Below are positions 1 through 37,626 of a DNA stretch of 64,000 nt, one piece after another. The position numbers and the translations under genes are program-made. Location of the stretch: IMG/VR virus record IMGVR_UViG_3300044691_000113, positions 1 to 64,000 of that record. One strand, 5' to 3'. Every line of letters starts with the position of its first letter. Position 1 is the stretch's first letter. The notes under the pieces are model-generated. The model worked only from the letters and a program-made list of their open reading frames with translations. It did not search any database and was not told the origin of the DNA. Source of the DNA: a virus.

Positions 1-3000
1 GGTCGTAGATGGAGCCGCCAAAGGGAACGTTGCTGATGGCCAGGTCGACCGAGTTGTCCGCGAGGATGAGGTCTTTGAAGTCCTTGTTGTAGAGCTGCGC
101 GTCGGGGTAGAGCTGCTTCGCGATGGCATAGGTCACAGGCTCCATCTCGTTGCCGATGGCAAAGGAGCCGTTGCGTAGCGCCTTGGGCATCATGCCGAGG
201 AAGTTGCCCGAACCCATCGACGGCTCGAGGATAGTGCCGGCGCGGAAGCCGACCCGCTTGGCGACGTCCCACATCCAGCGGACAACCTCCGGGGAGGTGT
301 AGTGCGCGTTCTGCGTGGAGCGCTCGGCCGCCTGCATCTCCTCCGGGGAGAGTAGGTCCTTCAGCTTGCGCGCCGCCTCCATGAAGCGCATCCGCTTGCT
401 GTGGTCATTGATCGAGTAGGGGCGGAAGACGTTCGGCAGGGAACCCCACCCAGCGAACTGCGCCATGGCCATCTTCTCTTCTGGGGTGGCGCGGCGGGGG
501 TTCTTCTCGAGGTCGCGCAGGATCTCCAGCGCGCGGATGTTGCCGTCGAGTTTGCCCATCTCGCCGGGTGGGACGGAAAAGTCGGCTGGATGGGTGAACC
601 AATTCTTGTTGAGGACGATAGGCTTGGTGAGAGCTTTGGTGGCCTTCTCGGTCTCGGCTAATCCTGGGGCACTATCAATTCCTGAATCAGCTCGCGACCC
701 TGATCCGGATTCATCCCCTTCTCCTGGCACTGATTCAATACGGTCAAGCACTGAAGGGCTGTCTGGTTTACCTGCTGCTTCAGTTGGTTCTCGCTCTGCA
801 GGAGTTGGTAATACTTCGGCCGGTCGCTCTGCCAGCGGCGCTCTATCTCCGCTTCGAGCGGTGCTAGTCTCGCGTCCTGCTCCGGACTGATCTGGTCCTG
901 GCTCATTGGGTTTATTGTCCTCTTTTGTCGAAACTTCGGCAACAGGTTTCACGCCGCCGCGGAACGTGGTGTACTCTTTGCCGTCGACCCTGACCCGGAC
1001 CATGCGGTCGCCTGCATGGGCGATGCTGCCCGTCTGCATCTTGCCGGTGCGGTCCTTGAAGGTGACGGTGTCGCCCTTGGCCAGCGGGGTTACTTCCTTT
1101 TTGGCTGCTTCCTTTGCGGCCTTACCCAGCATCTTGATTACGGTCAACTCGCCGTTGCGGTCAGAAATCTGAACGTGGTCGATGGGGAAGGTTTTACCCT
1201 CGGCTTCCGTCATCCCCGTATACTTCTCGGCCGCTTCTGGCTTTACATAAGCTACGGTCGCGTGGGGGATGTAGGAGTCGAAGTCTGATTTCTTGAATGT
1301 CGCATGGTCGCCAATCTCGGCGTTGATCTTGGATAGCTGCGGGGCTTCTACCGGAGCGTAGACGGCGGAGGCTCCGTCGCTATAGGTGCTTGGGGGGAAA
1401 GCCTTCGTCTTGCCCAGACTGGCATCGAACGGGGTCAGCCCTTCGATATATGCGCGCAGCTTCGGGCTGATCGTTTCGTCGGTGAGACCGTACCGCACGG
1501 TGACGTGATTGCCGTCTACATCCTTGCCGGGGCCTGCGAGGTCTTTGTCGGCAACCGAGTCCCGCATCTTCTCAAGAGACTTGCCGGCTGCGCTCGATTC
1601 CGAGATGTTCGTCTGAGTGCTGCCGTTGTCGTATTTGGGTTTAGGGGCCGTCCTCTCCGCGCTGGCTACTATCTCGCCGGGGAACTTCTCGCGCAGCAGG
1701 CTTTCAGCGTGTCTACGGTTTTCAGCGTCCACCTTCTCAATGCGGGACTTCGCGCCTGCGTACTTCTGGACCTCGGCTTGGTATGACTTAGTTTCAGGTG
1801 CCGCAGGTGCAACACCCCGTTGACTCCCTGCGGCCTCCGGCTCTTTTGCTTTTTCCGCTAGGTTCTCCTCCTTCGTTGATTTTGCAACCTCTTTGGCCGG
1901 TGCGGTCTCGGCTGGTTCGGGAATGACAGTGACCTTGCCTGTCTGGAGACTCTTCGAGATGAGCGGCCCATGCTTCTCAAGTGGTGTCAGCTCCCGCTCT
2001 GGCTTGGCGGCCTCGTCGAAGATGTCCGTCTTCGGCTCCTCCTGCTGTGCCTCGAGCCGGTCAATCAGAACCTCATGCGTCGGCTTCACCACGATCTTCG
2101 CGTCGGGGTGCCGCTCCTTCATCACTTCCTTCTGCTGCTCCACCCGCTCCGGGTGAACCTCGGAATCTTGTATCGGTGTGCCGGTCGCCTTGTCCTGCGC
2201 CTGGACGACAACCGTCTGCTTCTCCGGCGCCGCCGCAATCTCACTCTTCGGCTGGATGTGGCCCAGCAGGTCGCCGTGGGTTCCGGCCTTCGCCGCCTCC
2301 TTGATCGTGGCGGCGCGGATAGCCTTGGGGTTGTAGAGATATTTACCGGCACCCGGCGCATCTCCTGTGACGCTCATCATCTTCATGCCATCAGGAACCT
2401 TCGGCATGTACTTCGAGCCTTCGGGCAACATGACGACGTTCGTGTCGCCGCGCTTCATCGCCTCGAGCTGCGCGTCCACCGTCGCCCGCGACTCCTCGAC
2501 AACCTCGTGCCCTTTGCCGCCCACAGTAGGCAGCGCAGCTTCAGTCTGCTCCTTCTGGTACCGCTGCATCATCTCGTTCGCGGTGCCGGGTCCGACGCCG
2601 AGGTTCCGCTGGAGGACAGATTCAATTTTCTGACCGGGCTTGAGTGTCGTCGACCCGATGATCGTCTTCGCCCGCGCCCACTGCTGATCTGCCGGTGAGA
2701 GCGCCCCGTCCTCACCCGGCTTGTTCGCCTCCTTCGCCGCGGCTTCCTGCTCCTTGGCTACCTGCTCCTGCTGTTTTGCCGCATCCTCTTTTGCCGTCTG
2801 CTGACGGTCAACCTCATTGTTGATGATGTTCGCAGCCAGCTTTGCAGCCTGTTGGGGGGTCTCTGCAATCTGGAGTTTGCCATCGGGGTCAATGATGCGC
2901 CCTTGCTTCTGGATGTATTCTGCGAGCTTGCCATGCGCCTCCATGATGAGTTTGGGGTGTTGCTCGACCGGCGACAAGTGAATCATCGTGGCGATGTCCT

Positions 3001-4036
3001 GCACGGTCTGGGGGGAGACTACGCCATCCTGCATGGCTGCGGGCAGCTTCGGGCCTGGTGGAGGTGGTGGCGGCCCTCCTGCCACGACGGTAGCGGCCTG
3101 CTTCTGCTTCGTAGCCGCCCGGATGATGGCGCTGGTTCCAGCGTCGGTCTGCTGCGCTTGAAGTACCTGCGCGGGATCTGGCGGCGCACTACGCGGAATC
3201 CTCACGCCGACGCGGGTGTCGCCAACCTGCGCGCGAATGTCGAACGCCTCGGGAGTGCCCACGGCTCCGGCACGGAACCCGTCACCCTTGCTCGATACGC
3301 CAATGCCCGGATTTCCTTGCGCATCAACTCCGGCGCCGCCCTTGAACTTCATCGCGCCCGCCAGGGTCGGCAGGAAGAAGGCCGCCGTCTGGATGAGGTC
3401 TTTCGTCTCAGGCGACAAGTTGAGCTTGTCTGACGCAGCGCCGCCGACATCTGACGCAATGTTGCCCGCCTCGGCCGCCGCCAGAATCTTGATGATGGCA
3501 CCCTGCGCGCCGATGTTTCCAGCGTCAGCCGCCGCACCCAAGTCCATCAACTCCGGAGCAGAGAGCGCGATCGCCGCTTTGCTGCCGCCGCTGACAAGCT
3601 TGGTGATGCCCTGGACGGTCCGCTTGTTATTCGTGGGGTCGTAGGGGTTAGAGAGTGCCGGGGCAATGTCCTTCGCGCCGGTAACGATGTCTTTGCCAGC
3701 GCCGTAAGCCGTCTTTGCGACCTTGGCGACATTGCCGAAGCCTGCGCCCTCCCAGAGAGCGTCCTTTGCCACCTGGCCGACTGTGCGGTCTGGCTCGGGG
3801 TTCGACAGCATCGACGGCTTCATGCCCACGGCGGGGTGCGCGGCTGGCTGCGGGATTCCGGCTGGACCTGCGCCCGCTACGGTAGAGGCGTCGGGAACAT
3901 CTGTCTTGTCAGGAGGTGGGGCTACAGGTGCGGCAGTTGCCGGAGGAGCGGAAGGCTTTCCAACCTGGTCAAAGATGTCTCCGCCGCCGCTTGGCGCTGA
4001 GGGTGCGGCGACCTGATCGAAGATATCTTCCGGCAC
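1..4036 (-). CDS. Giant polyvalent phage protein, N-terminal part (2H-phosphoesterase-like and N6-adenine methylase domains), cut by window edge
   Basis: An open frame of about 1345 codons runs from a GTG at 4036 (GGAG six bases upstream) off the left edge without a stop. The N-terminus has two copies of a D-I-F-D-Q-V motif (near residues 4 and 20), and a related D-I-F-D-E-A occurs near residue 670. The middle is Ala/Pro/Gln/Lys-rich and probably disordered or coiled. Two H-x-T-V motifs (HVTV near residue 845, HATV near 925) look like a 2H phosphoesterase domain. A small beta-rich stretch follows, then a low-complexity linker, then a methylase domain with a helicase/methylase-type lead-in (QFAGWGS), HYTSPEV (about 1244), EPSMGSGNF (about 1270) and SNVPFGG (about 1337). 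This matches DarB-like antirestriction methylase-helicase polyproteins. Lying last in the late genes, where podoviruses keep ejection proteins, it is probably packaged and injected. The helicase part would lie outside the window. Confidence 0.85.
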   Translation of the reverse strand, partial: MPEDIFDQVAAPSAPSGGGDIFDQVGKPSAPPATAAPVAPPPDKTDVPDASTVAGAGPAGIPQPAAHPAVGMKPSMLSNPEPDRTVGQVAKDALWEGAGFGNVAKVAKTAYGAGKDIVTGAKDIAPALSNPYDPTNNKRTVQGITKLVSGGSKAAIALSAPELMDLGAAADAGNIGAQGAIIKILAAAEAGNIASDVGGAASDKLNLSPETKDLIQTAAFFLPTLAGAMKFKGGAGVDAQGNPGIGVSSKGDGFRAGAVGTPEAFDIRAQVGDTRVGVRIPRSAPPDPAQVLQAQQTDAGTSAIIRAATKQKQAATVVAGGPPPPPPGPKLPAAMQDGVVSPQTVQDIATMIHLSPVEQHPKLIMEAHGKLAEYIQKQGRIIDPDGKLQIAETPQQAAKLAANIINNEVDRQQTAKEDAAKQQEQVAKEQEAAAKEANKPGEDGALSPADQQWARAKTIIGSTTLKPGQKIESVLQRNLGVGPGTANEMMQRYQKEQTEAALPTVGGKGHEVVEESRATVDAQLEAMKRGDTNVVMLPEGSKYMPKVPDGMKMMSVTGDAPGAGKYLYNPKAIRAATIKEAAKAGTHGDLLGHIQPKSEIAAAPEKQTVVVQAQDKATGTPIQDSEVHPERVEQQKEVMKERHPDAKIVVKPTHEVLIDRLEAQQEEPKTDIFDEAAKPERELTPLEKHGPLISKSLQTGKVTVIPEPAETAPAKEVAKSTKEENLAEKAKEPEAAGSQRGVAPAAPETKSYQAEVQKYAGAKSRIEKVDAENRRHAESLLREKFPGEIVASAERTAPKPKYDNGSTQTNISESSAAGKSLEKMRDSVADKDLAGPGKDVDGNHVTVRYGLTDETISPKLRAYIEGLTPFDASLGKTKAFPPSTYSDGASAVYAPVEAPQLSKINAEIGDHATFKKSDFDSYIPHATVAYVKPEAAEKYTGMTEAEGKTFPIDHVQISDRNGELTVIKMLGKAAKEAAKKEVTPLAKGDTVTFKDRTGKMQTGSIAHAGDRMVRVRVDGKEYTTFRGGVKPVAEVSTKEDNKPNEPGPDQSGAGRETSTARSGDRAPLAERPAEVLPTPAEREPTEAAGKPDSPSVLDRIESVPGEGDESGSGSRADSGIDSAPGLAETEKATKALTKPIVLNKNWFTHPADFSVPPGEMGKLDGNIRALEILRDLEKNPRRATPEEKMAMAQFAGWGSLPNVFRPYSINDHSKRMRFMEAARKLKDLLSPEEMQAAERSTQNAHYTSPEVVRWMWDVAKRVGFRAGTILEPSMGSGNFLGMMPKALRNGSFAIGNEMEPVTYAIAKQLYPDAQLYNKDFKDLILADNSVDLAISNVPFGGSIYD
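658..906 (-). CDS. Overprinted 82-aa gene nested in the giant polyvalent gene
   Basis: This ORF lies wholly inside the giant gene, in another frame of the same strand. It starts ATG-AGC-CAG at 906 with AGAGGA about ten bases upstream, and encodes a hydrophilic, helix-prone protein (MSQDQISPEQDARLAPLEAE at its start) rich in Gln, Glu and Leu, ending in a TAG at 658. A manual count gives G or C at 61 of 82 third positions in this frame, as in neighbouring genes. The giant frame over the same bases has only 25 of 83 and encodes a Pro/Ser/Gly/Glu-rich linker. The third-base pattern therefore suggests that selection acts on the nested frame. I do not recognise the family. It could be a scaffold-like or regulatory peptide, or a relic of a separate gene that was fused through. 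Confidence 0.6.
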   Translation of the reverse strand: MSQDQISPEQDARLAPLEAEIERRWQSDRPKYYQLLQSENQLKQQVNQTALQCLTVLNQCQEKGMNPDQGRELIQELIVPQD

Positions 4037-22946: not shown

Positions 22947-23318
22947 TTACTCCGTAACGTGAAGTGTGTTGTCGCCTTGATGCACCGCTGCTGCGATGCC
23001 GTCGCGCAGGCCGCGCTCGAGGATGATGCAGCCCTCAGAGGCCGTATGGTTGAGGTTGGGATTGTCGCCGTGGATGAAGAAGCCAGAGCGCCTGAACATC
23101 TCGTTGTTAGCTGCCGGCTGCAACCGCATTGCTACCGGGCCGAGATGAGGGTCCGTCGCCGCGTTACCGATTGTGTAGATCCCCTGCGGGCACGGACCTA
23201 CCATCGGGACGTTCTGCATCGCGGGGTTATTCACACCCTCGCCGCGGCCGGAGTAGCCCTTGCCGATGGCAACGCCATTGTGGGTGAAGACGCCCGTCGA
23301 TTGTGAGAATGTCCACAT
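22947..23318 (-). CDS. L,D-transpeptidase/Tlde1-like (DUF2778) enzyme, probable lysis enzyme
   Basis: This 123-aa protein starts MWTFSQSTGV. It holds FFIHGDN near residue 80 and TASEGCI near 94, the His and Cys motifs of the Tlde1/DUF2778 branch of L,D-transpeptidase-like proteins, which act on peptidoglycan stem peptides. It lacks a signal peptide and lies next to holin-like genes, so it probably reaches the wall through the holin as an endolysin-like enzyme. It is the first gene after promoter-like copy 4 (five bases before its ATG), with no normal ribosome site. Confidence 0.7.
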   Translation of the reverse strand: MWTFSQSTGVFTHNGVAIGKGYSGRGEGVNNPAMQNVPMVGPCPQGIYTIGNAATDPHLGPVAMRLQPAANNEMFRRSGFFIHGDNPNLNHTASEGCIILERGLRDGIAAAVHQGDNTLHVTE

Positions 23319-23709: not shown

Positions 23710-26700
23710 TTAGTGTCCGAACTGGGTTTGGTGGCCGAGGAAGTTGATGGTTCCGAACGTCTGAGGATGAGTGAGGGCAGGAGTTGCAAATATCAGTGCG
23801 CCGATGGTGCATGGAGAGGTCTGCGCATTGTTCGCAAAGTCCACCGTCGCGCACGGCGTTGTTCCCGCGCGGACGGCGTTGCTCCCGCTGGTGAGGTTGA
23901 AGTTGAAGTTATCGAGGAACGTCTCGGTAGTGGGGAGTGGAGTCTGCGGAGGCTGGCTCACCAGGGTAGGGGTAGCGCAAAGGTTCCCGTTGGTTCCGCA
24001 CGGAAGTCCCGTACCCGCCTTCTCTCCGATAGAGATGTTGTTGTGGTAGACCGGATTTGCGACCGACCCAGCGTCCGTCCCGAAAACCGCGGGCCCGTTG
24101 GGCTGTCCGTTCATCTGGTAGCCGATGAAGATGTTGTTGGTGTCGTTGATTACCGCGGTGCCGCACCCGCCTGGGGGGTTGGGCGTGTTGTACGCGCTGC
24201 CGCAACTGATGAAGGAGTGATAGCCGCCGTCGCTGTTGCTGATGAACGTGTTGTTGTATCGCGTCCAAACGGCTCCCGACTGCAAGTTTGCGGCAAAGCC
24301 ATTTCCTCCAGCACGGCAGAAATCTCCCGCTGTACTAAGGTACGAACCGCCAAGCCCGGTACTCTGGTTGAAGTTCTGCGCCGCCCCAGGTAGAGCCTCC
24401 GACATCCTGTTGCAATTGAGTATGCTTTGATTGTCGTGGAAGTCGAGCGTGCCGTTCACGTCCGAAATGAACTTCCAAGCCGAACCCATATTGCCAACGA
24501 CTTTGGAGTTGGTGATGATGATGTGCGCCGCAATGGGATGCGGGCCAATCGTGGCGTCCTTGGTGTTGTACTCCATGTCTGCGTGGTCCAGGCTGAACGT
24601 GTCGAGAAGGGTGTCCTGACCGCTCAACGCATCACCGAAGCCGCCATTGACGGTAGCCCAACAGGACAGCGCCGAGAACACGGTGTTGACGATGGGATAC
24701 TGCTCGATGCAGCCGTTGCCGATCATGGTCGGATAGCTCGCAATCATGGTCGCCCCCACCCCGTCAGGGGTAGAGCCGCCGTCGTCCATGTTCCATGCTG
24801 CGAAGCCATTGAAGCCTATGAACACTCTCGTGGGCGCGATGCCAGCCCCGAACGGACCCTGCACTCCGGCGTGATCCAGTCCGTGGATGTAGAGATCGGT
24901 CATCACGATATCCGAGGTCTGGTTGTCCTCAAGGATTCCATTCCCGGCGTAGTCGTCCACTGGAATGTTTCTGCTGCAGCCTCTCGGATAGTTTGGTGTA
25001 CCAAAGGTGGAGCAGACCCCGTTGTGTGAAGTTATCTCAAGACAGCTAATGGCGACGTGTTGAGTGCTTGCGATGTTGAAGATGTTGGTCAGACCCATCC
25101 CGCCAAAGATTTGCGTAAGCTGGCCGGCAGTGTAGTTCCGGGGGTTCGTGCTTCCGCCAGTCGCGCACGCGGCAAAGTTCTTGCCTAGGAACTGTGTCCT
25201 TTGCGTGGCAGATCCAGCTGGAATCCACGGATTAGTGCAGCCCTGATTTCCAACCGAATTGCACCAGTTGTTGCTCACGCCGCCGCCGTTGTTGACATCC
25301 CAACCGATGCGGCAGTTTGGGTTGGAAGGATTCGACTGGGTGCCAAGCGCGGTGCAGCCTTTGATGATGACGATATCTCCACCAGCGATGACCCATTGGC
25401 CCTGGCCGATGATTCCGCTGTCGTCGTCCCACAAGTAGCGAATATCGTTGAACGGGCATGGCTGATTGGTTCCGCTGACGTAGTGCGTGGTGGAAAGCCC
25501 GTTGCACTGGCCCGAGGTCATGTTGGACGAAAACCTTGTGCCGCCGCCGTTGGCCGTGGTGTCAACAATCCACGTTCTTTGCGCCTGCTGCGTGTAGGTG
25601 CCGGTCTGTGGTGAACTAGAAACGCCACCGACGCACGTAATGAATTTGACCGGAGTGGTCGCGCTGTTGGGAAGGGTCACCTGCACACCGTTCGCCGCCG
25701 CCGTGCCGTTCGTGGCCGCGCAGCTTCCGTTGGCCGTGGGCGTGGTGCCGTTGGTGGTCCAGATCACGTTGGAGCCGAACGCTCCGTTGATGGTGGCCAC
25801 CAGGGGCGAGTAGGAGTACGCCCCGTTGGTGACGCCAGAAATTACCGGGTAAGGATAGAGCGGCGTTATGGCGAGGTTGATCGTTACTATACCGCTGTTG
25901 GTGAATCCGGTGGCCGTAGATAACAGCTTGATGGTCGCGGACCCGTCGAAATTTATCAGGCCACTAGGCCCGGCATTGAAGGTATAGAGGGTGCCATGCG
26001 TGCAGGTGCCGTCAGGCGTGGCCGGGGTAGTCGGGGTTGATCCATCCGTCGTGTAGCAGATCGCAATTGGGGCCGCCGCCGAGCGGTAGACGGCATTGAT
26101 GTTCGAGGGGATAAAGCGGAGCTTCGTCGCCTGCTGGTATGCGGGATTGAAGCCGATAAAGGGGTAGGTATTAGCACCACCGTCAGAGTTTTGGAACACA
26201 GCGGTGGATAGGGCCGCAGTGGGGTTCAGGAGGGGCACGGGAGGCGAAACGCCAACTTGGAAGGAGCCGAAACTGTCTGTCGATGTGCTTCTGCGATCCA
26301 CCAGCAATCCGGCGTTGCCTGTGGCGTAGGTAGAGTCAGTGCCGTTGCAGATCGGGACGCCGTTGTCGTAGGCGGTGAGGGTCGTGCCGTTAGCCGCAAG
26401 CATGATGGTGTGACCGGGAGCAACCGAAGGGCAGGAGGCGATAGCGGAGCCCCCAAGGGCCGTCAGTTTGTAAATACCAGTTATTCCCGGCGCGAACAGA
26501 TATCCGTTTCCGGCCGTAGTGCCTCGGACTATTACGCCCGTAGCTGCGCTAAATGGGGCGGTGAGCACTGCCTGAGAGAAGTGATCGTTGCCGGGAGAGC
26601 ATGAAGAACCAACCCAAATCGCCATGCCCTCCGTCGAGGCGGTCGTGGGAAAAGTGGTGCTCGAACCTTCTATGAGAGCGGAGGTCGCGCTTACTGTGGT

Positions 26701-26841
26701 CTGCGTCCAATCGACGGGGTTGAGGGCGCCGGAGCCGGGGAAGGTGTAGGTTGCGGGGCACTGAGACCATGCGTATCCGGCAGCAGACCAGAGGGCTAAC
26801 AGAGCAACGACCCGCTTCATCGATAGAATTCTCTTTAGCAT
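23710..26841 (-). CDS. Secreted beta-helix protein with chitobiase-like repeats (fibre or spike candidate)
   Basis: This 1043-aa protein starts MLKRILSMKRV, and residues about 8-26 form a Sec signal peptide ending A-W-S. An N-terminal concanavalin-like region is followed by two segments resembling chitobiase C-terminal repeats (CYTTDGSTPTT near 260, IWTTNGTTPTAN near 363). Then comes a long Asn/Gly/Thr/Ser-rich region with short repeating strands that fits a right-handed parallel beta-helix. Cys pairs are frequent, consistent with export. The signal peptide is unusual for a phage fibre. It may be a displayed adhesin, an exported moron or a spike. Confidence 0.7.
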   Translation of the reverse strand: MLKRILSMKRVVALLALWSAAGYAWSQCPATYTFPGSGALNPVDWTQTTVSATSALIEGSSTTFPTTASTEGMAIWVGSSCSPGNDHFSQAVLTAPFSAATGVIVRGTTAGNGYLFAPGITGIYKLTALGGSAIASCPSVAPGHTIMLAANGTTLTAYDNGVPICNGTDSTYATGNAGLLVDRRSTSTDSFGSFQVGVSPPVPLLNPTAALSTAVFQNSDGGANTYPFIGFNPAYQQATKLRFIPSNINAVYRSAAAPIAICYTTDGSTPTTPATPDGTCTHGTLYTFNAGPSGLINFDGSATIKLLSTATGFTNSGIVTINLAITPLYPYPVISGVTNGAYSYSPLVATINGAFGSNVIWTTNGTTPTANGSCAATNGTAAANGVQVTLPNSATTPVKFITCVGGVSSSPQTGTYTQQAQRTWIVDTTANGGGTRFSSNMTSGQCNGLSTTHYVSGTNQPCPFNDIRYLWDDDSGIIGQGQWVIAGGDIVIIKGCTALGTQSNPSNPNCRIGWDVNNGGGVSNNWCNSVGNQGCTNPWIPAGSATQRTQFLGKNFAACATGGSTNPRNYTAGQLTQIFGGMGLTNIFNIASTQHVAISCLEITSHNGVCSTFGTPNYPRGCSRNIPVDDYAGNGILEDNQTSDIVMTDLYIHGLDHAGVQGPFGAGIAPTRVFIGFNGFAAWNMDDGGSTPDGVGATMIASYPTMIGNGCIEQYPIVNTVFSALSCWATVNGGFGDALSGQDTLLDTFSLDHADMEYNTKDATIGPHPIAAHIIITNSKVVGNMGSAWKFISDVNGTLDFHDNQSILNCNRMSEALPGAAQNFNQSTGLGGSYLSTAGDFCRAGGNGFAANLQSGAVWTRYNNTFISNSDGGYHSFISCGSAYNTPNPPGGCGTAVINDTNNIFIGYQMNGQPNGPAVFGTDAGSVANPVYHNNISIGEKAGTGLPCGTNGNLCATPTLVSQPPQTPLPTTETFLDNFNFNLTSGSNAVRAGTTPCATVDFANNAQTSPCTIGALIFATPALTHPQTFGTINFLGHQTQFGH

Positions 26842-26981
26842 CTAAGTCCTTGGTGGTACTATTCTTAGCTATGCGACACTTGACGTTTTTACTATCTGCC
26901 TGCCGAACCTACTGGTCTCTAATCACTGAAAAGACAACGAAAGAAGAGAGGGATGAGTGGCGTCCATTCTCGATGTGATTC

Positions 26982-27779
26982 CTAGACTCCTGCATTGCAA
27001 TTGCTCCACGCCGCGATAGCGTTCAGCGCTGTGCTGTTCCAGATGCCGTTGAAATATCCGGCGTCGAGGATGTTTCCCTGGAAGGCATCCGCCAGTCCGT
27101 TGGCCACTCCGAAAGTAGTGATGGGCGCACCGAAGGAAATGGCGCCGGCTGTTCCGCTGCCATCAGCAGTCACCACGCCGCCAGCCATCGTATACAAGGC
27201 CCATGCGCCAGTGGTGGCGTTCACGGTCACTGCAACCGTGTACTTGCTACCGCTGGTAAACGTGGCAGACCCGGAACCTATAGAGGAGACGCTTGAGACA
27301 AGGATCTCCTGGACACCGCCTCCGCTAATTCTCCATTCAAAAGCTGTAGATGGTCCCCCGATGATGCCGCGAAAAGCGCCAGACGGTTGTAGTGTCGCCC
27401 AGAAAGAGGTTGAGGTTACGCTGGTTGGAATTCCACTGCCTAGCTGCAAAGCGTTCGGAGCCCCTGAATAAGTTGCGGCAGTTAGAGTGCCGAAGGAGCT
27501 AGGTGTATAGGTGGGTTCAGCATAAGAACCCGTATTCCCTACGAGGCTCAAGCTTCCAACCGTGTCGGGAATCAAATTGATGGACGCTCCTAAGCTACAG
27601 GCACCTCCTACGCAGGTCACACCAGCGCCGTAGGCAGGCCATTGCGAGGTTTCAAAGGCTGTAGGTGCGGCACAACCGCCGCTCGACGGTCCACCACCAA
27701 CACCTCCTTTGCCGCCGATGCCGCCCTTACCGCCAATCTGAAGCAGCAGGAGAGCCAAAACTATTCCGTGTCGAATCAT
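26982..27779 (-). CDS. Secreted LamG-like (concanavalin fold) protein
   Basis: This 265-aa protein starts MIRHGIVLALL, five bases after the preceding stop. A hydrophobic N-terminus (about 5-13) is followed by a Gly-rich repeat (GGKGGIGGKGGVGGG) and then by a domain of strands with Trp and Phe typical of a LamG/concanavalin sandwich (about 110-240, including GSKYTVAVTVNATTGAWALY). It lies between two large signal-bearing fibre-like proteins and is probably expressed with them. A carbohydrate-binding role is likely but unproven. Confidence 0.65.
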   Translation of the reverse strand: MIRHGIVLALLLLQIGGKGGIGGKGGVGGGPSSGGCAAPTAFETSQWPAYGAGVTCVGGACSLGASINLIPDTVGSLSLVGNTGSYAEPTYTPSSFGTLTAATYSGAPNALQLGSGIPTSVTSTSFWATLQPSGAFRGIIGGPSTAFEWRISGGGVQEILVSSVSSIGSGSATFTSGSKYTVAVTVNATTGAWALYTMAGGVVTADGSGTAGAISFGAPITTFGVANGLADAFQGNILDAGYFNGIWNSTALNAIAAWSNCNAGV

Positions 27780-27784
27780 CGTCG

Positions 27785-30700
27785 TTATATCCCCGGGCAG
27801 GTATAGGTAATGGTGTAGCCGGTCGAAGCGGTGGGTGCCGTACCGACATTGAGGGTCCACACCGAGGTGGTGTAGCTCCACGAGTAGGGCAGAGCAGTGA
27901 AGGGGCTGGCAGTGAGGACGACGCTTGCCGTGCAGTCCGGCAGATTGGTGTGTGCCGTACCCGCCGTCACGGTGAGCAGTGCGCCCGTCGTGGTCGCCGT
28001 TCCTGCGGTGAGGGTGACGGTCCCGTTCGTGGGCCCGCAGAGATGGCTTGCGGTGCAGGCGATCGTCGGTGACGTTCCAGCAGCAGCGCCCGCCGCGATG
28101 GTTGCCGCCGTGAAGGAGCCGATTGCATTGCCCTTGAGGGTCGGTGCCTGCTCTGCCCCGGTGTACGTGCCGCCCGTTCCAGTGGCTCCGTTGATGACTG
28201 GCGAGGTCAGCGTCTTGCCGGTGAGCGTCTGGGTCGCCCCGATGCCTGCCAGCGTGTCGCTCGCCCCTGGCAGGGTAAAGGTTGCGTTGGCGGACCCGGT
28301 GAACTGCGTGTTGAAGGCACCGTTGAGGGTGAGGGTTGAGCCAGTGATCAGAGTGAGTGTCGCCGAGGTCGTCGGCGCCGTGATGGTCACCTTGTTGATA
28401 GAGGTGGCAGTCGCCGCGCCAAGGGTCGGTGTCACCATCGTGCAGCTCGTCACCAGGCAGACGTTGCCGCTTCCGCTCGTCCCCACGATGGTCTCGATGA
28501 TCGCGCTCGAAGAGTTTGTGTAGAACGGGAATCCGGTAGCGGCCGCGCCTGCCAGCGTGACACTGTAGGACGTGACTGCGGCCGGAGCCTGGATGCAGAT
28601 AGTCGTCGTCGTGCAATTGGCATCACCTGTACTTGTCGTTCCCTGTGGCAGGAAGAGAAAGCCTGCTGTGGTGCCGGTGCCGACGAAATACTTGCCTGCG
28701 AAGCCAGCCGTGCCGGTGTAGGTGAAGGCCGTTCCGCTGTCGGTCGCCAGGGAGTTCTTAGGGGCTCCGCCTGCACCGCCGCCGAGCATCACTACGTTAT
28801 TGGTCAGCAGCGCCGAGGTTGCGGCTGCCGAGGTGCTGGAGGCGTAGAAGACACCGCCAGAGGTGAAGCCTGCACTCGCCGGGAACGTGTTGCCGTTGAC
28901 CGAGGTCGCATTGATCGTTCCGCTGCCGGATACGCCAAGGCTGGCACCAGTGCCGACCACCATAGCCGCCGTGGAGTTCGTGCTGCCGGTGAGCGCAGAG
29001 AAGGCAGTTGAGCCGCCTGAGCCGCACGCAGCACCAGCGTCAACCAGGTCGATGCCGTTGGCTGCCAGCTTGACACAATCTGCCGCGGTGCCGGCTGTCG
29101 CAATACCCGGAATCATCAGCGCACCGATGTTGTTCGGGTTCTGCATCCAGCGGTGCAAGGTGGAGTCAGGGTAGAGCGCCGCAGAGGAGGCTACGCCGGT
29201 GATTGCCGTTCCTTCCGGAATCAACCAGCCGTTAGCCGTTCCTGAGCCCGTGTAGGTGAGCTTCGTTCCGTCATCCGTAAGTCCGGAGTTGATGATGGAA
29301 TTCGCACCGTTGGCTTTGGGGATAGTGTTCGTAACCAGCGAGGTCGAGGTCGTGTTGCCGGTGCCAGCAGCAGGACAACCAGACCCACCCGTCTGACAGA
29401 GGCCAGCGAGCGCCACACCGCCTACCGCGCTGGAGTTTGTGGCCAGTGTCGCTGTCGCCGCGTTGCCAGTAGTGCTCTGGTTGAGTGTGGGAAAGTCGGC
29501 AGCTACGGCCGCAGAGAGCGTGCCTGCCGTGTCCTTCAGTATCCCGGTGAGACCTGATGGCCCTTGAGTTGTTCCCAGATTCCCGGAGAGAAGCGAAAAG
29601 CTGTAGTCGCCGCTCACGGGCACAACCGCTCCGGCTCTCGTGTTGAAGCTCGACACACCAGTCCCGGAGCCGCTGAACGTATAGGCGTTGCCTGTATGAG
29701 ATACGCCCGGTCCGCTGAAGGTGAAGGCCCCAGTCAGCGTATCAATACTGATTACGCCACCACCACCGCCCCCGCCGCAGCCAGAGCAGCTTGGCACGGT
29801 GATCGGCACGTCGCTAGACCATCCGGAAACTGTCTGAATCACGTGGGAATCGCCCGAGACGCCGTGGATTGTCGTCGTTGTTGCAGAGCTGGTCTGGTCG
29901 ATAGTGGAGAATGTCCCGCCAGCACCGCCCACTACGCTATTGGCGTCTGAAGTAGTGATGGTTTGGATGTACCCAGAACCGGTAGTCTGAAGAATTATTA
30001 TGTGGTCTGCGGGTTCCTCGCGTACCGTCAAGGTGTTAGTGCTGTTTCCGGTCACCCTCTCCATTTTGCCGGTGTCCTGGTGGATCGTCTCGGTGTACGT
30101 CCCGTTTTGGGTTGGGACCCGAAAAAGAAGAAAATTGGAGCGTGCATCCGCACAACCAAACGAGCAACCCTGAAATGTGACGAACGCGGTGTCGGGCGTG
30201 GGAATATTCTGGAAAATGGTGAGGAACGGGGCTTCGTTATTGGTCATGTCGAGCATGACGTTCGCAACTGGCTTAGTTCCCCCGTGGCCGAGATAGTTAT
30301 TTGGGGTGTCCTGGAACGCAACGCGATACCACGTCGTTCCTTCGGGGATCTGGCCGCCGAGTTGATCAAAGTGAATAACGTCAGGGGTAGCCGGAGAGAC
30401 CTGTGATTGGAAGTTGATAAGGTTGTGGTCAAGCCCCTGGAAAACTTCGCTATAGACCTGATCTTCTAAGTGGTCTCCGGCAGTTACCTGAAAGTTGGTA
30501 TTCGGCTCGACGGTCAGATTGAAGTTGTTGGCGAAGGTGACGGGGTCTACCGTATTCACGATTTCTACGGCGGGAAACAGTTGAGCTTCGCGAACTGAAA
30601 GTCCATTGAGCTGAGACTGAATCTCGACAGCATTAGTGCAGGTTGTCGTAGCTGCTGGGCCGGCAGTGTTCCATGTGACCGTAGAGCCGTTATCGGAGGT

Positions 30701-33130
30701 AATAGCTGCAAGGATATTGAACGACGTATCTGCACAGCCAGAGACGATGATGAAATCTTTCGACAGGACTAAGAACGGATCAGTCACCGGGGCGCTGACG
30801 ACGTTCGAGCTGTTTCTGGTAAGCGTGACGCCAGCAGGGGCAACTATTCTCGTTGTGGCGTAGCCCGAAAGAGCCTGTAGCCAACGACCCGCACCGATCC
30901 TTGAATACAAGAGGTGCGTGGCGTCCAGTGCCCCAACGATACGGATAATCTGCCGCCCAGGGAACGTTCCAGTGTACTGATTGGCCCTGATGTCAATCGC
31001 GGTGCAGGAGTGCGAACCCTGTACGACATAGGCCTGGGCTTGGTGGTTGTAGCGTAGGGCTACCGTTATGGTCTGAGTCCCGCTAGAAAATCCACCGACC
31101 GAGACTACCCTTGCACTCTCCATATAATCGCGGTCGGCATAGCAGACGGTGCTGGCCGTGGTGATTGCGGAGGTGAGACCGGTGACCACAACGGTCGCGT
31201 TCGTCGTCGCGCCATAGTACTGGGTAGGAACGGTTACAGGCGAAGCTACCCGTCCGATGTTGTCGGGAGTCAGGGTAAGCGTGTCGATTGTCAGTTGGCC
31301 CGCATCGGCAACCCCCGGATCACCTGAGAAAACTATCTTGAATAGGGCGCTTCCCTTGCTGGCATCGACGAGGGGCGTTCCATCTCCCGGAAAGGGCACG
31401 TTACTAATCAGCGTCCCTTGTATCAGCGTGGCTCCCGCCGCAAGAGTGGAGTTAGCCGAGATGGTCATCGGGGTAAGGTTCTGGCCGATCTGATTCCTTA
31501 CCGTATTGAAGCCTTCAGCACCGCCGTCCGGGTTTCCCCTGTTGTTGGTGACAACGTTCTGCCAGATGTGGCTGTCGCCAACCCCCATTCCTTGATGCTG
31601 AATGGTGAATTCGTTGACAATGCCGCGCCGCATGAATTCGAAGGCCCACTGAAAGGCTACGTAGCTGTCAGGTCCGCCGCCGTCAAATCCGTTCTTCCCC
31701 GACCCGGTCATTTCAAAATCGCGTAGGTAGGTGAAGACGTTATTTCCCGCACCCGAAGCCTGCGCCTGCTGATTCGATACCCAGCGGTCGTCGCTAACAA
31801 TGCCGCTCGGCGATCCTACATTGGTGTTATAAGCGTAGCTGCCAATACCATTCTGCCGGTAGTCATAGAACTTAGTATTGTTGGCAAATGGTGCTGGGCA
31901 GCCGATGGCATCACGCCAGTTGGGGCCGACGCAGGTACTATTCCCGCTGAGGATGCCTTCAACTTGGGCGTAATCCGGGCCAGCCACAACGATGCTTCCC
32001 GCTACCGCCAAAGCATTCGCTATGCCATCGTTCGAGGTTGGTGTGGTCTGATTGAGGAAGGCATTCTTGAGGCCGTCGTTACTCAGAGATTTGAAGTTGC
32101 CCACGCTGTCGAAGGTGGCGTTAGAGGCTGATCCCGCTCCACCTCCGGCGCTGAAGATTGCCTGGTTGACCGTGCCGGGTATCGTGCTTCCACCTCCGCC
32201 CGGTCCGCATTGCCCGTTGACCTGCAACACGTTGGTTCCAACTGTGCAAGGGGTTCCACTCCATATCGTCCCAGCGAGCGAGACGTAGTCACCCAAGACT
32301 GCCGCGCGAGAGGTGAGCGGCGTGATGCCGAAGACAGGAGCATTGCTTGGCAGGGTTGCGCCAGCTCCGCATCCGCCCGTCGAGCAGAGCGTAGTCAGTG
32401 GAACAAGACCGATCTGCGTAGGAGGGTTGCCGGGTACGGGTCCAGCCCATACGAAGCCAGGGGTGATGTACGCCTGATTCGCGTCGATGCAGAAGGTTGT
32501 CCCGTTGATCGCGGAGGCTATCGCCTGGTCGTTTCCACGCTGGCAGCTCGGGTTGAGCGAGGGATTCTGTGTCCAGTAGACAGCGGCGTCGCCCTGCAGC
32601 CTCGAGCACACCCATGGGTAAGGATCGGAGGCGAGGGTGTTGTTATACATCGCACTCGGATTGCAGTTGAGCGTGGGGATACCGGCGCCAGAGATGGTGA
32701 TGCCAGCGGGAGCGATGTAGCCGTCGTAGGAGAAGGACGCCGTGGTGATGTTGGTCAGCGGGAAGGTGAAGTAGGTTGTGCCGCCGCCCGTGCTCTGTGT
32801 CTGGATCCGGTAGCGTGTGTTCGCCGGAGCCATCGTCAAAGGGTTGGCGATCGTCGGGGGAAAGCCGCCGATGTTCTGCACTGCTCCCTTGACGACTGGG
32901 AGAGTGAAGGGCGCACTCGTCGGAGATCCACCCTGGGGCGTGTAGGTAACCGGGGTGTTTGACGTGTCGGTGACGGTGAAGATGAGTTGGCCGGTGAGCG
33001 GTTGCCGGTTGTTATCGACGACCTTGTTGCCGCTGACGGGGATGGTCGCCTGCGCATGGAGCGCAGGGGGGATGGCGAGGAGGACGGCCGCGAGCAGTCC
33101 GAAGGTAAGCCAAAAGTTGATCCTGCGCAA
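27785..33130 (-). CDS. Giant secreted tail-fibre-like protein
   Basis: This 1781-aa protein is read from a TTG at 33130 with GGAGG six bases upstream. An ATG at 33166 lies inside the promoter-like repeat and is less likely. A Sec signal peptide (LTFGLLAAVLLAIPPALHAQ) opens the protein. An N-terminal domain (ATIPVSGNKVVDNNRQPLTG), a long Thr/Ser/Gly/Asn-rich beta body and fibre-type repeats (TGNAATATLATNSS near 1345) follow. The repeats are typical of tail fibres, and the signal peptide is not. It is the first gene after promoter-like copy 5. Confidence 0.7.
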   Translation of the reverse strand: MRRINFWLTFGLLAAVLLAIPPALHAQATIPVSGNKVVDNNRQPLTGQLIFTVTDTSNTPVTYTPQGGSPTSAPFTLPVVKGAVQNIGGFPPTIANPLTMAPANTRYRIQTQSTGGGTTYFTFPLTNITTASFSYDGYIAPAGITISGAGIPTLNCNPSAMYNNTLASDPYPWVCSRLQGDAAVYWTQNPSLNPSCQRGNDQAIASAINGTTFCIDANQAYITPGFVWAGPVPGNPPTQIGLVPLTTLCSTGGCGAGATLPSNAPVFGITPLTSRAAVLGDYVSLAGTIWSGTPCTVGTNVLQVNGQCGPGGGGSTIPGTVNQAIFSAGGGAGSASNATFDSVGNFKSLSNDGLKNAFLNQTTPTSNDGIANALAVAGSIVVAGPDYAQVEGILSGNSTCVGPNWRDAIGCPAPFANNTKFYDYRQNGIGSYAYNTNVGSPSGIVSDDRWVSNQQAQASGAGNNVFTYLRDFEMTGSGKNGFDGGGPDSYVAFQWAFEFMRRGIVNEFTIQHQGMGVGDSHIWQNVVTNNRGNPDGGAEGFNTVRNQIGQNLTPMTISANSTLAAGATLIQGTLISNVPFPGDGTPLVDASKGSALFKIVFSGDPGVADAGQLTIDTLTLTPDNIGRVASPVTVPTQYYGATTNATVVVTGLTSAITTASTVCYADRDYMESARVVSVGGFSSGTQTITVALRYNHQAQAYVVQGSHSCTAIDIRANQYTGTFPGRQIIRIVGALDATHLLYSRIGAGRWLQALSGYATTRIVAPAGVTLTRNSSNVVSAPVTDPFLVLSKDFIIVSGCADTSFNILAAITSDNGSTVTWNTAGPAATTTCTNAVEIQSQLNGLSVREAQLFPAVEIVNTVDPVTFANNFNLTVEPNTNFQVTAGDHLEDQVYSEVFQGLDHNLINFQSQVSPATPDVIHFDQLGGQIPEGTTWYRVAFQDTPNNYLGHGGTKPVANVMLDMTNNEAPFLTIFQNIPTPDTAFVTFQGCSFGCADARSNFLLFRVPTQNGTYTETIHQDTGKMERVTGNSTNTLTVREEPADHIIILQTTGSGYIQTITTSDANSVVGGAGGTFSTIDQTSSATTTTIHGVSGDSHVIQTVSGWSSDVPITVPSCSGCGGGGGGGVISIDTLTGAFTFSGPGVSHTGNAYTFSGSGTGVSSFNTRAGAVVPVSGDYSFSLLSGNLGTTQGPSGLTGILKDTAGTLSAAVAADFPTLNQSTTGNAATATLATNSSAVGGVALAGLCQTGGSGCPAAGTGNTTSTSLVTNTIPKANGANSIINSGLTDDGTKLTYTGSGTANGWLIPEGTAITGVASSAALYPDSTLHRWMQNPNNIGALMIPGIATAGTAADCVKLAANGIDLVDAGAACGSGGSTAFSALTGSTNSTAAMVVGTGASLGVSGSGTINATSVNGNTFPASAGFTSGGVFYASSTSAAATSALLTNNVVMLGGGAGGAPKNSLATDSGTAFTYTGTAGFAGKYFVGTGTTAGFLFLPQGTTSTGDANCTTTTICIQAPAAVTSYSVTLAGAAATGFPFYTNSSSAIIETIVGTSGSGNVCLVTSCTMVTPTLGAATATSINKVTITAPTTSATLTLITGSTLTLNGAFNTQFTGSANATFTLPGASDTLAGIGATQTLTGKTLTSPVINGATGTGGTYTGAEQAPTLKGNAIGSFTAATIAAGAAAGTSPTIACTASHLCGPTNGTVTLTAGTATTTGALLTVTAGTAHTNLPDCTASVVLTASPFTALPYSWSYTTSVWTLNVGTAPTASTGYTITYTCPGI

Positions 33131-33152: not shown

Positions 33153-33170
33153 GCGTACCCTACCATTTTT
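33153..33170 (-). promoter_or_regulatory. Late promoter-like 18-base repeat, copy 5
   Basis: Identical core, 22 bases before the TTG start at 33130. It also contains part of the TAA stop of the upstream gene (33169-33171). The minus-strand upstream flank GAATCCT matches copy 3. Confidence 0.6.
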
Positions 33171-34271: not shown

Positions 34272-34547
34272 CTAGTCGGTTTGGTTGTCCCAGAAGAGTT
34301 GAACGGCCAGGGCCTTCTCCTCGATCGGCAGCTTCGCCCAGAACGCATCAAGTTGGTTCTCGTCGACCATGAGGGGCACGAGGAAGCGGGTAACGTCTTC
34401 GTTGACGGAGGCATCCGGGGCTTGCTTCTTGGGCTTCTTTGGGCCTTTGGGCTTCTTGACTCCGGCGTGGAGGTCGCAGAACTTGCGCGCACCCTTCGCC
34501 TCAAACGTCTCTTCGCAGTGCTCGGACGCACATTTCTTAGTAGCCAT
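34272..34547 (-). CDS. Small Cys- and Lys-rich protein
   Basis: This 91-aa protein starts MATKKCASEH. Cys and His at C6-x4-C and F-C-x2-H (near 23-27) suggest a zinc site. A Lys/Pro-rich linker (KKPKGPKKPKKQ) follows, then a helical C-terminus. The TAG abuts the next ATG. Unknown role; similar small DNA- or protein-binding adaptors are common in phages. Confidence 0.6.
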   Translation of the reverse strand: MATKKCASEHCEETFEAKGARKFCDLHAGVKKPKGPKKPKKQAPDASVNEDVTRFLVPLMVDENQLDAFWAKLPIEEKALAVQLFWDNQTD

Positions 34548-34806
34548 GGGGCTCCTTCATTTGGGAGAAGTAAGATGAGCGTTCTATGCCCAGGTAGGTT
34601 CCGGTGGTGCCACTCGCGTGCCAATACAGGACACCCCACGGCTCCGGGCTGATGTACTCGGTGGTGTACTCGGCGACGGGAACTAGGCTGCCGAACGGCT
34701 CAATGGGGATGATTTCCGTCTGGGCGAGGAAGATTTTGGGAGCAATGCCGACGCCTACAACCGCCGTGGCCAGTGATCGCAGGAATGATCGTCTACCGAG
34801 CACCAT
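34537..34806 (-). CDS. Small Tat-signal protein
   Basis: This 89-aa protein starts MVLGRRSFLRSLATAVVG. The R-R-S-F-L-R motif followed by a hydrophobic segment (LATAVVGVGIAPKIFLA) is a twin-arginine export signal. The mature part (from about 29) is short, with no enzymatic motif. It overlaps the next gene by 11 bases. Exported small proteins are unusual for a phage and may modify the host envelope. Unknown function. Confidence 0.55.
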   Translation of the reverse strand: MVLGRRSFLRSLATAVVGVGIAPKIFLAQTEIIPIEPFGSLVPVAEYTTEYISPEPWGVLYWHASGTTGTYLGIERSSYFSQMKEPHGY

Positions 34807-36220: not shown

Positions 36221-36388
36221 CTATCTCTGATTGCTCAGGCAGAAATTATTGCGTTCCTCTTCGTTGCAGAACCAACCGTAGGCGCCATCTTTGACCATGC
36301 GAGTCTTCGAGACGATCGAGCCACACTTCACGCACCGCGCAACCTCGGAATAGTAAGCAGGAAATAGCCAGCGAAGAAATCTCTTCAT
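36221..36388 (-). CDS. Small zinc-ribbon-like protein
   Basis: This 55-aa protein starts MKRFLRWLFP at 36388; its ATG overlaps the integrase stop (ATGA). C-V-K-C near 19-22 and two later Cys (near 41 and 50) suggest a zinc ribbon. Coupled to integrase translation. Function unknown. Confidence 0.55.
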   Translation of the reverse strand: MKRFLRWLFPAYYSEVARCVKCGSIVSKTRMVKDGAYGWFCNEEERNNFCLSNQR

Positions 36389-37626
36389 GCTCTTTTCCTC
36401 AGCATCTCCACAACCCTGGCGTTGGCACCGCGCACCGTCTCCGCCTTCGAACTGCCGCCGTACTTCAGGGTTTGCCGGATGTCTTCATGGCGCATGAGCG
36501 CCCGTTGCTCCTCGAGGGTGAGCTTCTCCTGGTCCATCATCGCCCGGTAGGTGTGGCGGAAGTCGTGCCAACCAAGGTTGGGGATGCCGATCAGCTTGCC
36601 CGCAGGGACGAGATGGTCCTGCTGCAACGTTCCACCCCAGAACGGACGGCCGGTAACGATGTTACAGAAAAGCCAGCCATTGACTGGGGTGGGGATGCCG
36701 TCTCGGGTCTCACCTTCGATAGTCTGCTCCTCGCGCCATAGCTCGAGGATGGCGTAGAGGTCTTCGTGGATTGGCAACTCCTCCTCAGATCCTTCGGTTT
36801 TCGTGTCGCCGGTGTTCTGACCCACTTGGGAGCGGTGGATGCTCATGACGCGTCGTACCATATTGAAGTCTTCCCAGCGAAGGCCGAGTATCTCACTGAC
36901 GCGCAGGCCCAACAGCATGGCGATGAAGATCATGGTGCGAACGTGGGGAGCCAGTTCTACCACCGTGGTCAGGGCAATCCACTGGTCATGGGTGATGATG
37001 TTCGCTGGGCGAACCTTCTTCCTGCGCCCCTTCACCTTGACCGCGGTGACTGGATTGCGTTGCATGGGGATAAGTTGGTGCTTCATCGCGTACTCGAAGA
37101 CAAGGTGTACGAACGCCTTGATGTGGAGCTTCGTCTTCTTGCTGGCTGGACGGGCAGGTTTGCCAGGGATCGTCTTGCCGGGGATGAGCTTGCCCTTTGC
37201 CATGCGGTCTGGGATAACCCTGTCGGGCTTGGCCAGGACTTCGTAGCCGTTGACCCAGTTCTCGATCGCGAGGATGTCCTTGACCATGTCGTCGACGCGC
37301 CACTCGCCCCAGTCTGCCCGTAACCGCTTCATGAACCCGAGGTATGTCTTGGCTGTCTTCGGGCGTATGTCCTTCGGCTTGTCCCACTCCAGTTTGAGGC
37401 GATCGCAGAGGCCGGAGACGTTGATGCCGGCGATGCGCTCGTTGATCTCGAGGAGTTGGCGGTCGGCTTCCTTGCGCGCGGCGCCCTTGGTTCGGAACTT
37501 GTCGACGGTGCCAATCTCTTTGGAGCGGTATCTACCGTTCTCTTCGAAGCGGAGAACCCACAGGTCAGGGCCCTTGGCGCGGGGTTTGCGGGTGACAGTG
37601 CCTTGCTGGTAGCTGCTGCGCTTCAT
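36385..37626 (-). CDS. int: Tyrosine integrase
   Basis: This 413-aa protein starts MKRSSYQQGT. It has an N-terminal arm-type domain (GTVTRKPRAKGPDLWVLRF), a central core-binding SAM-like region, and the catalytic domain with Arg near 242 (GLRVSEILGL), H-x-x-R near 354-357 (WHDFRHTYR) and the nucleophile Tyr near 389 (TLKYGG). All key residues appear intact. It should catalyse integration and excision at the nearby tRNA-Arg(ACG)-derived attP, and a small zinc-ribbon gene overlaps its stop. Confidence 0.9.
   Translation of the reverse strand: MKRSSYQQGTVTRKPRAKGPDLWVLRFEENGRYRSKEIGTVDKFRTKGAARKEADRQLLEINERIAGINVSGLCDRLKLEWDKPKDIRPKTAKTYLGFMKRLRADWGEWRVDDMVKDILAIENWVNGYEVLAKPDRVIPDRMAKGKLIPGKTIPGKPARPASKKTKLHIKAFVHLVFEYAMKHQLIPMQRNPVTAVKVKGRRKKVRPANIITHDQWIALTTVVELAPHVRTMIFIAMLLGLRVSEILGLRWEDFNMVRRVMSIHRSQVGQNTGDTKTEGSEEELPIHEDLYAILELWREEQTIEGETRDGIPTPVNGWLFCNIVTGRPFWGGTLQQDHLVPAGKLIGIPNLGWHDFRHTYRAMMDQEKLTLEEQRALMRHEDIRQTLKYGGSSKAETVRGANARVVEMLRKRA

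Follow-up and report, generated by a model that had tools for sequence, protein, structure and literature searches.

Putative exported, disulphide-bonded spike and fibre proteins in a tailed phage of Acidobacteriota and its relatives

Assembly of tailed phages, fibres included, is taken to be a cytoplasmic process. In the stretch of DNA analysed here (the window, positions 1 to 64,000 of IMG/VR record IMGVR_UViG_3300044691_000113), we find three tandem open reading frames on the minus strand whose products of 1781, 265 and 1043 residues (p1781, p265 and p1043) are best explained, with a probability of about 0.5 for the explanation as a whole, as exported, disulphide-bonded late spikes or fibres that dock on virions at lysis. 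Under this proposal, the three would be late spike and fibre proteins of a tailed phage of soil Acidobacteriota, and each precursor would be exported by the host Sec system. Judged from the sequences, it is very probable that the signal peptides are cleaved and that the mature chains fold outside the cytoplasm, where host disulphide machinery would oxidise essentially all of their cysteines. For the next step, in which the spikes would be stored in the periplasm or envelope until the adjacent lysis genes release them to dock on finished virions, we see even odds. The broader proposition that a large group of Acidobacteriota tailed phages completes its virions outside the cytoplasm, with receptor-binding parts meeting capsids only at cell opening, falls a little short of an even chance.

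The virus record comprises 69,299 bases, and its ends repeat 127 bases as a direct terminal repeat, from which we conclude that the contig, of which the window is a part, is a complete tailed-phage genome of ~69.2 kb. The record has weak matches to terminase subunits, and a search of the phage collection found no DNA-level neighbours. A very long gene for a DarB-like polyvalent protein spans the contig ends (window 1-4036 and record 62265-69128); the 2287-aa open reading frame at the right end of the record, which is part of this gene, contains no cysteine at all. The three reading frames described in an earlier note on this DNA are present, and behind them, on the same strand, lie a putative holin and a Tlde1/YkuD-domain protein that probably form a lysis module (Table 1). 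A search for a sigma-70-like promoter ahead of the three-gene block on its own strand, which is a weak test, found none. At window 34537-34806, an 89-aa open reading frame (MVLGRRSFLRSLATAVVGVG...) has a start that resembles a Tat-type signal (RRSFLR).

Table 1. Features of the exported-protein block and its surroundings, in window coordinates.
Feature	Position	Strand	Basis and remarks
Tlde1/YkuD-domain protein, probable lysis-module cell-wall enzyme	22947..23318	-	Pfam PF10908, E 1e-15
Putative holin, 117 aa with hydrophobic segment	23353..23706	-	Inferred from sequence and position
p1043, putative exported right-handed beta-helix protein	23710..26841	-	ORF, family, signal, model; 28 Cys in mature chain
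p1043 C-terminal tail, residues 1021-1043	23713..23781	-	Place of the phage-only tail of relatives
p1043 predicted beta-helix domain, residues 420-1020, with conserved Cys/Asp/His	23782..25584	-	Family alignment and AlphaFold model
p1043 predicted signal peptide	26764..26841	-	Own scorer and inspection
p265, putative LamG-type protein with Gly-rich linker	26982..27779	-	ORF and positional equivalent in L003; 4 Cys in mature chain
p265 probable signal peptide, 17 aa, cleavage site weak	27729..27779	-	Own scorer and inspection
p1781, putative exported fibre-like protein	27785..33130	-	ORF, start, signal peptide, similarity to L009; 30 Cys in mature chain
p1781 predicted signal peptide, 26 aa, ...PPALHA/QA	33053..33130	-	Own scorer and inspection
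Integrase	36385..37626	-	PHROG integrase, E 7e-50

Signal peptides were judged with our own crude scorer together with inspection by eye. The traits of a Sec signal (positive start, hydrophobic core and small residues at -3/-1) are clear in p1781 and p1043 and weak in p265, and the claim that all three proteins carry such signals is accordingly strong for the first two and weaker for the third. The p1781 protein begins with MRRINFWLTFGLLAAVLLAIPPALHA, with cleavage predicted ahead of QATIPV; its favoured start is the TTG at 33130, which has GGAGG upstream, and a longer 1793-aa reading from an ATG at 33166 also exists. We find no convincing family for it in Pfam or PHROG, no homologue in IMG/VR and no match among solved-structure sequences, while in 299 Terriglobia genomes its C-terminal parts alone recur, in two genomes. 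The fibre character ascribed to it earlier is backed by its C-terminal half, which resembles an exported fibre-like protein of one relative (L009, E 5e-31), and not by any protein family. An iterated profile detects no head-binding domain in p1781 at E 0.1, profile comparison of the N-terminus reaches a probability of 17%, and a single-sequence AlphaFold run could not predict the fold of this region (mean pLDDT 33.5). It is possible that a diverged head-binding domain is present, and we infer that p1781 acts as the long fibre of the phage.

The start codon of p265 (ATG at 27779) lies just behind the p1781 stop codon. Its N-terminus, MIRHGIVLALLLLQIGG followed by KGGIGG, lacks a clear A-x-A site and is the weakest signal of the three. 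Homologues are found neither in IMG/VR nor in the 299 Terriglobia genomes; comparison with solved-structure sequences gives nothing beyond two weak matches to designed proteins, and the iterated profile detects no head-binding domain. The LamG-like region that had been read into this protein has no Pfam match in p265 itself, but the equivalent gene of a relative (L003) is a Laminin_G_3 protein (E 1e-18), and p265 probably contributes a binding domain of the LamG type to the block.

The third protein, p1043, starts at an ATG (26841) with AAGGA upstream and begins with MLKRILSMKRVVALLALWSAAGYAWS, with cleavage predicted ahead of QCPATY. Its AlphaFold model has a mean pLDDT of 58, with residues 420-1020 mostly well predicted as a right-handed beta-helix, which bears out the beta-helix proposed from the sequence. 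The top Foldseek match of the model is the GH136 lacto-N-biosidase LnbX (PDB 5gqc, E 1e-7), with which it aligns structurally over 410 residues at 17% identity. In VIA-align, alginate epimerases, the polysaccharide lyase RbmB and the Sf6 tailspike score Z 20-23 (20.5 for Sf6). On the strength of this predicted fold, p1043 is probably a tailspike-like beta-helix that acts on polysaccharide, with the caveat that a shared fold is no proof of activity. The family has no match among solved-structure sequences. Its profile retrieves 12 viral loci and 12 genome loci, and all 12 of the latter are assigned to Acidobacteria or its families and genera, which places the host in Acidobacteriota. Across 23 family sequences with a mean column identity of 19%, five cysteines are invariant and seven nearly so, as are, without exception, Asp 686, Asp 737, Asp 762 and His 768.

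Phage and chromosomal members of the p1043 family differ in their C-termini and in their surroundings. The C-terminus of many phage members is a tail of the form G-x-V-x-F-x-G-x-V-x-(I/L)-Q, which chromosomal homologues lack; among exported phage proteins it is carried by L003, L008, L011, L016, L036, Tunturi_1 gp14 and gp17, and Tunturi_4 gp114, while the C-terminus of p1043 itself fails the strict pattern. This phage-only tail may serve in trimerisation or docking. The chromosomal homologues L023, L026, L027 and L028 lie in Wzx/Wzy-type exopolysaccharide loci of Acidobacteria, next to genes for glycosyltransferases, Wzx-type flippases, Wzy-type polymerases and UDP-glucose/GDP-mannose dehydrogenase, and are often exported or lipoprotein-type. 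From these loci, it is a fair guess that p1043 acts on acidobacterial exopolysaccharide.

The signal peptides recur well beyond this genome. Members of the p1043 family, phage and chromosomal alike, start with Sec- or lipoprotein-type signals, the exception being one partial chromosomal frame in L027. These signals sit on unrelated N-terminal sequences and ahead of differing N-terminal domains, as in p1043, L003 and Tunturi_1 gp17, which share the beta-helix, differ in their N-terminal domains and each retain a signal peptide; they are therefore not chance hydrophobic starts. Many of these phages also have adjacent genes for signal-bearing, cysteine-rich proteins, whereas the other late proteins are neither. 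In total, 14 acidobacterial phages encode signal-bearing spike or fibre proteins, among them the plaque-forming isolates Tunturi_1 and Tunturi_4, and by these sequence criteria the class is not confined to one phage. Tunturi_1 has six consecutive genes (gp12-gp17) with hydrophobic, signal-like starts (the one on gp15 did not pass our scorer), and Tunturi_4 has signal-like starts on gp111, gp113 and gp114. The start deposited for Tunturi_4 gp111 (L005:14501-17596, PP885687) lies too far downstream, and an in-frame upstream start adds the signal peptide MNRISKAIGLCALALSVGSSYG, with Q as the next residue. The fibres of Tunturi_3 and Tunturi_5 have no signal peptide and few cysteines, and the Tunturi_4 genome has both kinds, which makes export a trait of the protein class rather than of acidobacterial phages; given the ordinary fibres of Tunturi_3 and Tunturi_5, the host does not require fibre export. 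The main text of the paper on the Tunturi isolates does not contain the words "signal peptide" and reports no virion proteomics, which it names as future work (PMC11924767); we found no published proteomics of these virions.

Cysteine content gives a separate view of what becomes of the signals. We catalogued 44 proteins with signal peptides in 13 phages (five of the proteins received no score from the scorer and were included by eye) and compared them with 63 structural or late proteins without signal peptides from the same and sister phages, 47 of which have any cysteine; parity played no part in choosing the catalogue. Of the 44 mature chains, 42 have an even number of cysteines (p 1e-10, counting homologues that are not independent), as against 17 of the 47 cysteine-containing proteins without signals; excluding the p1043 family leaves 29/31 even (p 2e-7). 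Adding five L036 proteins gives 46/49, or 47/49 once one start is corrected, whereas the precursors are even in just 33/49. An odd number of cysteines lies within the signal peptide itself in 17 proteins, and 15 of these 17 mature chains become even upon its removal (p 0.001), which points, if indirectly, to real cleavage. In addition, the residue at +1 of the predicted cleavage site is glutamine in 34 of the 44 proteins, and the median cysteine content is 2.2% in signal-peptide proteins versus 0.45% in those without (p 1e-16). The three proteins of the window all have even mature counts (Table 1). The simplest reading of the parity, as far as sequence can tell, is that the signal is removed and that almost every cysteine left in the chain is disulphide-paired. 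The pattern is weaker in an independent chromosomal set, with 16/21 even by hand count and 14/18 among proteins that pass the scorer; four of the five odd cases come from one related subfamily. Odd counts of 11-15 mark a subfamily in which QGVRYDN follows the signal peptide (L082, L086, L092 and L107), perhaps because chains are disulphide-linked to one another or because the start is misplaced.

The link to virions comes from relatives in which a signal peptide is joined to the head-binding domain of podovirus tailspikes. In L003, a 389-aa protein encoded upstream in the block has a signal peptide followed by a head-binding domain at residues 31-105, with matches to PDB 9vyg (E 2e-5) and PDB 7eeq (E 5e-4). 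A profile built from six such proteins of five phages, L008 among them, strengthens these matches to E 6e-10 and 1e-8, respectively, and one iterated profile groups Tunturi_1 gp12 and proteins of L003, L011 (two), L014 and L036 with proteobacterial tailspikes that lack signal peptides. In all, the combination occurs in the blocks of Tunturi_1, L003, L008, L011, L014 and L036. As controls, none of ten tailspikes from other, mostly proteobacterial, phages has a signal, with the domain match beginning at residue 3-17, and neither do any of 31 distinct IMG/VR tailspikes, drawn from the 80 loci nearest to the query, which do not form a random sample. Within Terriglobia, the domain is held by 55 of 299 genomes, and a signal peptide precedes it in 29 of the best 30 loci. 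At three Terriglobia loci that we inspected, the domain gene lies amid cysteine-poor genes that by eye appear capsid- or tail-like. One Terriglobia head-binding-domain protein without a signal peptide (L081, from genome hit L051) has 799 aa and 9 cysteines.

Together, the retained signals, the parity that is even only after signal removal and the signals prefixed to the head-binding domains of relatives support the earlier suggestion that these proteins are exported. A precedent that makes extracytoplasmic docking plausible comes from P22, whose heads and baseplate parts can be joined in vitro into complete virions (Israel, Anderson and Levine 1967, as cited in PMC3741392). Since no head-binding domain is detected in p1781 or p265, attachment to the virion of this particular phage is argued from its relatives. 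The main rival, which may cover some or all of the block, is that export and disulphide bonding do occur but the proteins work away from the virion, as late depolymerases, epimerases or receptor blockers that act on host exopolysaccharide or surface such that progeny can leave the cell and matrix without being trapped on debris. The model of p1043, with its resemblance to polysaccharide lyases, alginate epimerases and the GH136 enzyme, fits such a role, as do the exopolysaccharide clusters around its chromosomal homologues, the adjoining lysis-type genes and the undetected head-binding domain in p1781 and p265. On the other hand, a head-binding domain joined to a signal in six relatives has no obvious use away from the virion, and it is phage members of the p1043 family, not chromosomal ones, that often have the extra C-terminal tail. 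We consider this rival a serious but doubtful one.

Other accounts fare worse. The earlier note envisaged display on the lysogen as adhesins, receptor blockers or biofilm proteins, a form of lysogenic conversion for which one could cite the integrase of this phage and the surface-displayed, exported tail-fibre-like MAT proteins of Bdellovibrio (PMC10769870). The block, however, runs in line with lysis-type genes, with no promoter-like site of its own by the weak test above, and a block of this kind is also present in Tunturi_1 and Tunturi_2, neither of which has a predicted integrase (PMC11924767); we regard lysogen display as improbable. Its further suggestion that virions may mature at the membrane comes near the model favoured here, although docking at lysis is simpler. 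A shade less credible than lysogen display is that the hydrophobic N-termini stay uncleaved on cytoplasmic proteins and serve as helix anchors in the tail or membrane. Cytoplasmic assembly of fibres is indeed established for well-studied tailed phages, and p265 has no good cleavage site, but the recurrent glutamine at +1 and the dependence of parity on signal removal speak against an uncleaved anchor, as do the cysteine enrichment and the lack of any such stretch in the ordinary Tunturi_3 and Tunturi_5 fibres. Finally, the starts might have been placed too far upstream, with the real proteins beginning after the hydrophobic stretch. That p1781 has more than one candidate start and that a Shine-Dalgarno-like motif precedes just 23 of the 44 signal-peptide starts would agree with this artefact, yet we can hardly credit it: the first 30 mature codons of all 44 proteins hold a single in-frame ATG with a Shine-Dalgarno-like motif, the sequences diverge yet keep their hydrophobic core, positive N-terminus and cleavage site, and the deposited start of Tunturi_4 gp111 errs late, not early. 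We also considered dual cytoplasmic and exported forms made from an internal start and rejected them, as there are no systematic internal starts among the 44 proteins.

Were exported, disulphide-bonded spikes indeed added at lysis, this would be a new assembly route for tailed phages and would explain the use of cysteine-stabilised spikes by viruses in harsh soil. It would also alter the way in which soil-phage receptor-binding proteins are identified, as deposited starts can miss the signal (Tunturi_4 gp111), and would call for their expression in the periplasm. Direct testing is possible, since both phages and hosts are in culture, among them Tunturi_1 and its laboratory host Tunturiibacter psychrotolerans X5P2.

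Several known systems share parts of this picture. The streptococcal proteins PblA and PblB are phage fibre-type proteins that serve as adhesins outside the virion and reach the surface by other means; they are not known to carry Sec signal peptides. Exported fibre-like or tailspike-like proteins encoded by bacteria are already known from Bdellovibrio and Pantoea. The mosaic adhesive trimer (MAT) proteins of Bdellovibrio are exported, phage-tail-fibre-like surface proteins in which a signal peptide is followed by a conserved, beta-rich MAT domain of ~130 aa (PMC10769870); by comparison of descriptions, they are bacterium-encoded and used for predation, whereas p1781, p265 and p1043 lie in a phage late operon. 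Pantoea WceF is a chromosomal, Tat-exported enzyme with a tailspike-like beta-helix that acts on exopolysaccharide (PMC7949094). Its beta-helix is common to p1043, whose chromosomal homologues likewise lie in exopolysaccharide loci, while p1043 itself is phage-borne, Sec-type and cysteine-rich. The likeness of the p1043 model to LnbX is one of fold, and many other beta-helix enzymes score equally in structural alignment. Among phage proteins, a survey of phage-encoded hypervariable proteins took their lack of signal peptides as support for phage origin (PMC6199706), and a limited literature search, mostly of titles and abstracts, found no reports of signal peptides on tailed-phage spikes. Also close are the podovirus tailspikes (P22 gp9, Sf6 and cyanophage Pam1; PDB 7eeq and 9vyg), which share the head-binding domain with the related acidobacterial proteins, the late-gene position and, going by the model of p1043, a tailspike-like beta-helix. 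What sets the acidobacterial proteins apart is the signal ahead of the domain, present in 0/41 control tailspikes, and their many, mostly even, cysteines, as where the ordinary tailspike motif PLAGGKL reads PCAGCKL in L003.
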